From positions 1 to 64,000 of the forward strand of contig JAGWYB010000002.1 in assembly GCA_018969585.1 (NCBI GenBank): a stretch of DNA of 64,000 nucleotides, in the 5' to 3' direction. The translations under genes and the position numbers were made by a program. A model generated the notes under the pieces. It made no database searches. It was not told the DNA's origin and saw only the letters and a program-made list of their open reading frames with translations. This DNA is from Actinomycetales bacterium. GTDB lineage: Bacteria; Actinomycetota; Actinomycetes; Nanopelagicales; Nanopelagicaceae. Shown in pieces: positions 49,864 through 53,641 of this stretch; positions within the stretch are counted from its first letter, which is position 1; the number at the start of each line of letters is the position of its first letter.

Positions 49864-50844
49864 TCAAACTGAGGCTGAAGCGCCACCTCGGGCAACGTTC
49901 TCAGCAATCGCTAGAACCGCTCTCTCCAGCGCAAAAGCGCCATCCACCTCGCCACCTTTAATACCGACGTCAGCTTTAGATAATTCTGTAATTGCAAAGG
50001 TAATCATCCCTGGTCGCCATTTGTTTAATTGCCGCCTGGCTTTATCTATTTGCCAAGGCGCCATTCCCAATGCACCGGCGAGTTCAAATGACTTTACATG
50101 CTTTGGTGCGTCTGAAACTTTTGCAAGCGCCCTTACGGAACTTGCGATTGCTGAGACAATCATTACTGGATCCGTACCGGATTCAAGTGCATTGCGAAGC
50201 GAAATTAAAGAGTTTTTAGAATCACCCAAAATAACTGCATCCGCCACATCGAAGCCTGTAGCTTCTACTCGACCTTGATAATATTTAGAAATATCGGTCT
50301 CATCAATCGTAATTTTTTTCGGATCTGTATCGGAAGAAATTTGGCTACAAGCTGATGCTAATTCACGAGTATCGTTTCCAGTTGCGTCGACTAAAGCTTC
50401 TATGCCATCTTGAGAAATCTTTCTTCCGTGTCGCGCGAACTCATTCTTAACAAATTCAGCTTTATCGCTCGCCTTCTTTAGGGGCTCGCAAGCCACATAC
50501 TCTGGTTTCAATTTCTTGATTTTCTCTATCAATCCTTTACCTTTTACGCCTCCAGCATGGAGAAAAATCAAATGGAGATTTGGGTCGACTTCAAACTTTT
50601 CAAAATATTGATTAATTTCTTCACTTACCTCAGCGACGCTGTCTTGCAGGTCTTTTACAATAATCACTCGCTTCTCTGAAAATAGTGATGGCGCTACCAC
50701 GTCGGAAAATTTCCCAACTTCTAACTCAGATCCCATTAGCGTGGTCCGCTCAAAATCACTCCGCGCGGCGAGAGCAACCTCAAGCGCCCGATCCGCTAGC
50801 GCTTCCTCTGGGCCATGAATCAAAACTATTTCAGTTATTGCCAA
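49864..50844 (-). CDS. holA: DNA polymerase III subunit delta
   Basis: Size, order rpsT-holA-comEC; ...HGPEEALADRALEV..., KWRPGMITFAITELSKADVGIKGG. Confidence 0.88.
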   Translation of the reverse strand: MAITEIVLIHGPEEALADRALEVALAARSDFERTTLMGSELEVGKFSDVVAPSLFSEKRVIIVKDLQDSVAEVSEEINQYFEKFEVDPNLHLIFLHAGGVKGKGLIEKIKKLKPEYVACEPLKKASDKAEFVKNEFARHGRKISQDGIEALVDATGNDTRELASACSQISSDTDPKKITIDETDISKYYQGRVEATGFDVADAVILGDSKNSLISLRNALESGTDPVMIVSAIASSVRALAKVSDAPKHVKSFELAGALGMAPWQIDKARRQLNKWRPGMITFAITELSKADVGIKGGEVDGAFALERAVLAIAENVARGGASASV

Positions 50845-52817
50845 CTAATTTTCCACCATTCTTTCCCAAGTCTTCGGGAAGAGAATACTGGCTTATCTTG
50901 ATTACCGCTCCAACTAATCGCAATTGATCCAGAAATGTCCGTTCTTTCAACTACTCCGATGGACTGCAGTTGTCTAATGAGTTCGTGGTCGGGATGACCA
51001 TACGAGTTTGTGCCCACGCTGATTAGAAACCGTTTTGCTGATTGAAATAGGTTTATTGCCTGATATTTAGAACCATGGTGAGGAACCTTAATAATGTCTA
51101 TCTCTGAAAGATCATTTTCACGAAGAAGCGCTTCCTGGGCTCCTGGCTCAATATCCCCGGTAATTAAAATCTCAATCCCTGAGAGATCAGCTCGGATAAC
51201 TAAACTGCGATTATTTTCTAGAGAGCCGTCGCCTTTAATTGATTCGAAAGTTTCATCGACACTTCTTGGCCAGATTACGTTTAATTTCACATCACCAACC
51301 GAAGCTGAAAATCCAGCGCTCACAACTCTCGCCTTATTTCCAAATTCTTCCATATTTACAAAGGGATGATTTAGCCATATTTGGCCGACCGCATTGCGAT
51401 CTATAGCTGAAATTCCATTGTAATGATCTGCATGTTCGTGACTTAAGACAATTAGCGGTAGGTATCTAATTCCGAAATTCGAAAGACATTTCTCAAGAAG
51501 TTTCGGATCAGGCCCAGCATCAAACAAGATGGCTTCTTTCTCTCCTACGCGGATCAATAAAGCGTCTCCCTGACCAACGTCGCATTGGCCGATAACCCAA
51601 TTTTTCCCAGGAAAAGTTAAAGATGAATTACTAGAAATCACAAGTAACGGCAACAATCCCAAGATTAGAATCCGCCGACTTTTACTCCTCATTGCCACGA
51701 ATAGAGTGATTGCTAGAAGAATCAATAATGGGCTGCTAGAAACATCGGGAAAATTCTCGCTCCAACTTGAGACAAAAACGATCCATTTACAGGCAAAATC
51801 GGCCAAGTAAACTAATAAATCAGCCAAATATGGAATCGGAATCGCAAAAATAGTGGCAAGAAAACCCAAGATAGTAATGAATCCAATAACGGGTGAGACA
51901 GTCACGTTTATCAATATTGTTCCTAGATTCATTGAACCTGCTAGATACATCAGGTATGGCGCGCAGAAAATTGATGCCGAAAGTGGAATTGAAATCAGAT
52001 CCCGTATTGCCGCTGGTCCAGACAATCTCGAAGCGATTCTTGGCGCTAGATAGATCAATCCTGCCGTCCCAAGTACGCTCAAAATGAATCCAGGTTCTAG
52101 TGCTTGAAGTGGATTAATTACAAGTAATAAAAGAATGGCAGTTGCAAGCGCATTCTTGGCTTGGTTCTCCCGACCCAGAAATTTGGCCAATAAATAACTA
52201 CCAGTCATAAGAGCGGCTCTTAGAACCGAAGGGGTGGGTCGAACCAAGAAAACAAATAGAACTAGGGAAACTGAAGTTACCAAAACTCGCGGTCTGCGAT
52301 TAGGAAATAGGAATGCAAGTAAGTTAAAGATGAAAGTCCCAACAATGGCAAAGTTGGCTCCACTTACGGCAGTCAGATGAGCTAATCCTGCCTTTCGCAT
52401 GAGCTCGGTTAACTCAGCGCTCTGCAAGCTGGTATCTCCGATTACCATTCCAGGTATCAGCGATGATGAGTCACTATTTAATTTTTCGGCTCTCTCTCGA
52501 AGCGCAACTCTAAGCAGATCTAAACTGTTTCGTATAAGTGGCTCAGAGATAATCTCTAGCGAAGTCGATTTGGCATATAGGACGCCCGCCACTTTTCGTT
52601 CCTTAGACTGATTAAATCTGCCGGAAAGAGTTATCTTGTCACCCGGATTAAACTTCCTTGCTTCTTTACCATCCAAAATTATCCGCAACGGAAGTCGAAA
52701 TTTATGTCGTTCAGTTGCATATGAAACTTCCTCTAATCGCAGTAGAAATGTAATTCTTGAAGGAATCGATTTTGATCCAGCAACTCTTGGGCGAGTTAAA
52801 TTAGGGTCAGTCATCAC
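50835..52817 (-). CDS. comEC: ComEC/Rec2 family competence protein (track start; true N-terminus probably further upstream)
   Basis: GLAHLTAVSGANFAIV competence domain; C-terminal MBL-like QCDVGQGDALLI...LSHEHADHYNG. Confidence 0.9.
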   Translation of the reverse strand: MMTDPNLTRPRVAGSKSIPSRITFLLRLEEVSYATERHKFRLPLRIILDGKEARKFNPGDKITLSGRFNQSKERKVAGVLYAKSTSLEIISEPLIRNSLDLLRVALRERAEKLNSDSSSLIPGMVIGDTSLQSAELTELMRKAGLAHLTAVSGANFAIVGTFIFNLLAFLFPNRRPRVLVTSVSLVLFVFLVRPTPSVLRAALMTGSYLLAKFLGRENQAKNALATAILLLLVINPLQALEPGFILSVLGTAGLIYLAPRIASRLSGPAAIRDLISIPLSASIFCAPYLMYLAGSMNLGTILINVTVSPVIGFITILGFLATIFAIPIPYLADLLVYLADFACKWIVFVSSWSENFPDVSSSPLLILLAITLFVAMRSKSRRILILGLLPLLVISSNSSLTFPGKNWVIGQCDVGQGDALLIRVGEKEAILFDAGPDPKLLEKCLSNFGIRYLPLIVLSHEHADHYNGISAIDRNAVGQIWLNHPFVNMEEFGNKARVVSAGFSASVGDVKLNVIWPRSVDETFESIKGDGSLENNRSLVIRADLSGIEILITGDIEPGAQEALLRENDLSEIDIIKVPHHGSKYQAINLFQSAKRFLISVGTNSYGHPDHELIRQLQSIGVVERTDISGSIAISWSGNQDKPVFSSRRLGKEWWKISWQ

Positions 52818-53072
52818 AACTCCAAGAGCTGTAATTTCTTGGCCATCCAGGCGATTTAAGGCGTAATTATCGAGCGCTAGAAAGTGAATCTGGATAATCG
52901 CTGACCCTAAAATCAGAGCGGCGATCGGAATTCTTAATTGTTTTATTGGAATTGAGAATAGTAAGAGAATAAAGATTAAAGTGAAAGCAATCTTTATATT
53001 GTTGTAGGTAACGGCAATTCCTACCCAAACGCCAAATGCGAGCGGCGTTAGAGGGATAAACGGCTCTCCATC
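52818..53072 (-). other. comEC: In-frame N-terminal extension of ComEC lacking any ATG/GTG/TTG
   Basis: Codon-by-codon reading: DGEPFIPLTPLAFGVWVGIAVTYNNIKIAFTLIFILLLFSIPIKQLRIPIAALILGSAIIQIHFLALDNYALNRLDGQEITALGV then VM...; bounded upstream by TAA at 53073-53075. Confidence 0.75.
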
Positions 53073-53641
53073 TTAGAGAAGGTTTTGTCACCAATACCTT
53101 CCACTTTCTTTAAATCCTCGATACTGACAAACGGTCCATTTAACTTTCGATATTCAACAATGCGCTTGGCAAAGATTTCGCCTATTCCTGGCAAAGAATC
53201 AAATTGGGCGACCGTAGCTCGATTTACGTAAACTATTCCGCGAAATACTTCTTTTGCCTTTTTCGAGCCCTTAAATACATTCAAGCTCTCCCGCCCTAGA
53301 TAAATCTGTTCGCCGTCCTTGATCAGACGAGCAAGATTAAGTTGCGATAGATCAGTTCCAGTCTTCGCACCGCCAGCGGCTTTGATCGCATCGATTACAC
53401 GAGATCCAGAAATTAGTGGATACACGCCAGGCTTCTTCACCTCTCCGGCAACATGAACTAGAAGTGTTGTGGCGATCTGTTGTTCAACTACGCGAACTTG
53501 CGGTTTCTCAACGGCTTCGCCGCGAGAAATTAGTAATAAGAAAAGTGCAACGCACAATGCGCTCACCGAGCCAACTACGAGAGCTCTTTTTTGGTCAAGC
53601 GAGTACTCGATAGCCTGACTCTTTAGCGCTTGAAAATCCAC
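53048..53641 (-). CDS. comEA: ComEA-like competence DNA-binding protein (SLBB + HhH)
   Basis: N-terminal TM, VHVAGEVKKPGVYPL, VNRATVAQFDSLPGIGEIFAKRIVEYRKLNG. Confidence 0.93.
   Translation of the reverse strand: MDFQALKSQAIEYSLDQKRALVVGSVSALCVALFLLLISRGEAVEKPQVRVVEQQIATTLLVHVAGEVKKPGVYPLISGSRVIDAIKAAGGAKTGTDLSQLNLARLIKDGEQIYLGRESLNVFKGSKKAKEVFRGIVYVNRATVAQFDSLPGIGEIFAKRIVEYRKLNGPFVSIEDLKKVEGIGDKTFSKMESRLSL

Follow-up and report, generated by a model that had tools for sequence, protein, structure and literature searches.

comEC of a small-genome actinobacterial family is probably translated from a non-canonical AUN start codon inside comEA

We asked where translation of comEC begins in a 64,000-nucleotide stretch of DNA (hereafter the window) that forms part of a 1.1-Mb metagenome-assembled genome (G000, contig C38), whose host is a member of a small-genome actinobacterial family. 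The comEC frame lies on the minus strand, in the -1 frame relative to comEA, and stays open from 53072 to 52818, a distance of 85 codons between a TAA (53075-53073) and a GTG at 52817; no ATG, GTG or TTG is present in that 85-codon stretch. A sequence-only reading of the window had described this arrangement, and all of its coordinates were confirmed. It had also offered three explanations, namely initiation at a non-canonical ATC, a -1 frameshift out of comEA, and decay or an indel that leaves a shortened ComEC; the first is now the best supported for the window, the second is poorly supported and the third is contradicted. The features of the locus are as follows.

50835..53057, minus strand: comEC, proposed extent from the AUC; the protein would begin (fM)PLTPLAFGVWVGIAV; identified by Pfam Competence and Lactamase_B and by N-terminal homology.
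52812..52817, minus strand: GTG-ATG, the first canonical codons; a start here would drop the N-terminal membrane segment and DUF4131.
52818..53054, minus strand: remaining ComEC N-terminal membrane segment without ATG, GTG or TTG; identified by codon log-odds, homology and dN/dS in relatives.
53048..53641, minus strand: comEA, 197 aa, with SLBB and helix-hairpin-helix domains and a TAA at 53050-53048; identified from the ORF, Pfam HHH_3 and SLBB, and NCBIfam comEA models.
53049..53051, minus strand: CTA of the comEC frame, overlapping the comEA stop; site of the ancestral GTG (GTGA) in outgroups and in genera g10 and g13.
53055..53057, minus strand: ATC, proposed comEC start in G000; sole candidate codon, with GGAG 8 nt upstream and of the same codon type as infC of the family.
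53066..53069, minus strand: GGAG, Shine-Dalgarno-like, for the ATC; anti-SD duplex energy -6.4 kcal/mol.
53073..53075, minus strand: TAA in the comEC frame, the upstream limit of the open stretch.

The ComEC product contains PF03772 (Competence) followed by PF00753 (metallo-beta-lactamase), both above cut-off; its TIGR00361 match (162.6 bits) falls below the cut-off of 190.05, and the TIGR01259 match of the comEA product is likewise below its curated cut-off. A scan of the genome contigs for other ComEC proteins returned distant matches only. A second comEA-comEC pair (L002) is located in the same assembly on a contig of 2487 bp (G000:C53); its ComEC is ~40% identical to that of the window, and the pair resembles another g1 lineage. 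This pair probably represents contamination of the assembly, for which the assembly's own estimate is 3%.

The stretch upstream of the GTG is coding sequence. Its comEC-frame codon log-odds (0.177 per codon) compares with 0.19 +/- 0.06 for 240-nt pieces of real genes of the window, versus -0.39 +/- 0.22 for wrong frames. The ComEC N-termini of most genomes of the same genus align with it from query residue 9-12, and Pfam DUF4131 matches residues 29-155 of the long ComEC (below the Pfam curated cut-off), a match that is absent if the protein starts at GTG 52817. The upstream peptide is homologous to ComEC N-termini. The position of the GTG/ATG at 52817 is not kept as a start codon among the aligned relatives. 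Across 27 independent pairs (3 of which involve a genus or locus that has a GTG or another start), dN/dS is 0.119 from the comEA stop up to the first canonical codon and 0.134 just past that codon. The equivalent stretch in relatives is thus not evolving neutrally, and these comparisons indicate purifying selection on that part of comEC.

We read 124 comEA-comEC junctions from 16 genera of the family, most of them in genomes taken from a search of 254 family members that are at least 70% complete. comEC lies in the -1 frame of comEA in 110 of the 124, and in 85 of those 110 the comEC frame runs from its upstream stop to the first conserved Trp or first transmembrane segment without meeting a canonical codon. 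The start-less frame is, on this comparison, more than chance, because the same missing start recurs across most of the family.

A GTG of ancestral type, overlapping the comEA stop (GTGA), is found in genera g10 and g13 and at two g8 loci, and GTGA or ATGA is present at at least 13 of 22 loci from outgroup families of the class. Elsewhere in the family the homologous codon is mostly NTA, and comEA there ends in TAA or TAG. The ancestral start was thus lost through a change of the comEA stop: the GTG became NTA because comEA now stops at TAA or TAG, and a start inside comEA would have taken over. The comEA-comEC genes of other Actinomycetes display the same gene order and the same -1 overlap, with GTGA or ATGA at the homologous place; comEC keeps its canonical start in those organisms, whereas in most members of this family it does not.

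Several loci are organized differently. Six loci of genus g8 (L030, L032, L067-L069 and L073) have another frame relation between comEC and comEA, with an ATG or GTG downstream, and apparently lack the first transmembrane segment. Three loci of genus g6 (L082-L084) have an unusual comEC frame with ATG/TTG codons inside comEA. At L015, L020 and L021, a terminator-like element (a GC-rich inverted repeat plus a T run) directly follows the comEA stop, within ComEC N-terminal codons and adjoining a TTG/ATG. An in-frame TGA flagged in g9 comEC proved, at the one locus read (L033), to be the normal terminal stop of comEC.

An in-frame ATT located 11-12 codons before the comEA stop is present in 77 of the 78 junctions of genera g2, g3, g4, g5, g11, g15, g16 and g17. 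Its A is the third base of a comEA lysine or threonine codon and its TT opens a phenylalanine or leucine codon; the three letters stay constant for each of the residue pairs Lys-Phe, Thr-Phe, Lys-Leu and Thr-Leu in comEA. Lysine at this site is encoded by AAA in 65 of 65 cases (56% elsewhere in comEA), threonine by ACA in 12 of 13 (25% elsewhere) and phenylalanine by TTC in 73 of 75 (37% elsewhere); at control junctions with other arrangements, TTT and TTC are about equally common at the phenylalanine. Third-base changes were counted on a tree of comEA plus comEC (built quickly, with several long branches), from rows picked by genus, frame and openness, codon identity not being a criterion. 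The third base of the Lys/Thr codon, which supplies the A of the ATT, changed once on the tree despite six residue changes, and that of the codon after it three times, versus 11-40 changes for all other comEA codons between -30 and +15. The ATT is therefore kept beyond what the overlapping comEA requires, and we infer that AUU is the comEC start codon in most of the family.

At five loci (L049, L104, L111, L117 and L125) a comEC-frame stop immediately precedes the ATT. One g17 subclade, in which the frame is closed upstream, has a different ATT: L096 and L099 carry it 4 codons ahead of the comEA stop, L120 and L124 immediately beyond that stop. Base composition at third positions past the ATT is skewed, yet these positions change on the tree about as frequently as others, and dual-coding constraint downstream of the ATT was dropped as a proof for that reason. 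Judged from these alignments, the comEA/comEC overlap as such is not strongly frozen.

In relatives, the anti-SD energy is strongest 11-13 nt ahead of the ATT, with a mean of about -5.5 there, and the median best anti-SD energy is -6.3 at the ATT, versus -4.15 for the ATG-started long ORFs of the window and -2.0 for random positions. Part of the SD-like match falls within codons fixed by the comEA GxG motif, and the enrichment of GGA/GGG at that motif is present in controls too.

The window belongs to a clade (genus g1) in which the ATT site has been lost. Its sister genomes have CTG (L009, L011) or TTG (L006-L008) instead, and L010 has acquired an ATG together with a frame change. In the window itself, from the upstream stop to the first conserved Trp, no AUU, AUC, AUA, CUG or canonical codon occurs other than the ATC at 53057-53055, and a GGAG (53069-53066) sits 8 nt upstream of that ATC. 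Of the three options of the sequence-only reading, initiation at this ATC is the best supported for the window; the missing start is family-wide, and most relatives probably use a conserved AUU. This ATC is known from one genome, and its nearest relatives (~51% identical) have other codons; the start of comEC in G000 is most likely the AUC. In five other g1 loci (L002, L014, L016, L017 and L018) the sequence ahead of the first transmembrane segment is devoid of canonical codons and of AUU, AUC and AUA, leaving only a CTG at the beginning of that segment. The AUN start rule is thus not universal.

Translation could alternatively proceed by termination and reinitiation, in which a ribosome that has terminated on comEA moves back by one base and begins again at the NTA (or NTG) overlapping that stop, with no need of a standard start. 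The overlap with the comEA stop is kept in the same register at 110 of 124 junctions, its codon is the former seat of the ancestral GTG and is CTG in L009 and L011, and such a mechanism would also account for L002 and L014-L018. Nevertheless, the first base of the NTA resembles free codon choice in comEA (TTA, GTA and CTA are common, and ATA, the sole near-cognate, is rare), and the conservation of the upstream ATT would be left unaccounted for; we therefore regard this explanation as unlikely. The NTA was rejected as a start codon, as its first base tracks comEA codon choice, and so was the codon just after the comEA stop (ATT, GTT, AAA, GGT and others), which varies between genera.

A -1 frameshift within the final codons of comEA, yielding a ComEA-ComEC fusion, would fit the -1 frame relation of most genomes and a comEC frame that is often open over the 60-70 nt ahead of the comEA stop. 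It is very unlikely, however, given that inspection by eye revealed no slippery heptamer in the shared stretch of the window or in relatives with short overlaps, that the shared open stretch measures just 10-16 nt in several genomes, and that in several others a stop closes the comEC frame immediately ahead of the ATT. The ATT also survives Lys/Thr and Phe/Leu exchanges, any of which would change a slip site. Furthermore, the C-terminus of ComEA would be extracytoplasmic, whereas three predicted transmembrane segments before a loop suggest that the N-terminus of ComEC lies inside. Decay or an assembly indel, with a shortened ComEC starting at GTG/ATG 52817 as the true protein, could draw on the GGAG just before the GTG-ATG and on the lower conservation of the N-terminus (21-42% identity to sister genomes, versus ~54% for the remainder of ComEC), but is the least credible of all, as many independent genomes across the family share the architecture, the dN/dS of the equivalent stretch in relatives is 0.12, the stretch has gene-like codon usage in the window, and relatives do not keep a start at the 52817 position.

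A search of one literature library found no paper joining comEC with a noncanonical start codon. We know of only a handful of bacterial genes that keep a non-canonical start over long evolutionary times. In a uniqueness test of 62 gene pairs, drawn from 200 kb of each of two g17 genomes, comEC alone showed clear protein homology reaching well upstream of the first canonical codon in both genomes. The other high scorers were judged by eye to reflect 5'-UTR similarity, apart from one ambiguous pair (162 aa aligned, reaching 12 and 33 residues upstream), and flagged ORFs of the unfiltered scan, mostly antisense or UTR similarity, were filtered out.

The family's own infC (loci L155-L165) also lacks an ATG, GTG or TTG at its conserved N-terminus; several genomes have an ATC behind GGAG, and L159 has GTC in place of the ATC. 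infC was not found in G000, which is incomplete. The infC start is AUU in E. coli, ATC in Streptomyces and AUA in S. aureus (PMC5472188, PMC13009471). As proposed for comEC, these genes have a conserved, SD-assisted AUN start overlooked by gene finders, but infC is autoregulated by its own product, whereas comEC encodes a DNA-uptake channel and would start inside another gene. Streptomyces sigR has a GTC start that is repressed by IF3 in experiment (PMC5472188). Like comEC, it is an actinobacterial gene with a conserved non-canonical start, is cotranscribed and coupled with its neighbour, and has been misannotated; unlike comEC, its start is GTC rather than AUU/AUC, and its repression by IF3 is experimental, whereas that of comEC is our proposal. 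AUU is the start of E. coli pcnB and AUU/AUA that of S. aureus cvfC1/ccpN, as cited or reported in PMC13009471. Their weak AUN starts, with an extended SD in S. aureus, cap the amount of protein as may be the case for comEC, but these genes are not overlapping genes of a competence operon.

We believe that translation of comEC in this family probably begins at a non-canonical AUN codon within the last part of comEA; this codon would be AUU in most genera and most likely AUC in G000. From an ancestral GTG that overlapped the comEA stop, most genera would have come to use the AUU 11-12 codons before that stop, behind a GGU/GGUG-type anti-SD match; the clade of the window would have lost this AUU, with the AUC at 53057-53055, behind GGAG, serving as the start. 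A weak AUN start inside comEA, placed by its SD match, would be expected to give a low or regulated amount of ComEC, and by analogy with the genes above we propose that it could be subject to control by IF3. Production of ComEC may thus be deliberately weak, or governed by this start-codon proofreading factor. More tentatively, and with considerable doubt on our part, DNA uptake in this abundant group of small-genome actinobacteria might be gated by initiation fidelity: because comEC would start with AUU/AUC much as infC starts with AUC, a lower ratio of IF3 to ribosomes would give more ComEC and tie competence to the state of the translation machinery.

If this reading is correct, ComEC is truncated in gene predictions restricted to ATG, GTG and TTG. 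A whole family would then keep a non-canonical start in the gene for its DNA-import channel, and control of natural transformation by IF3 would become a directly testable idea.
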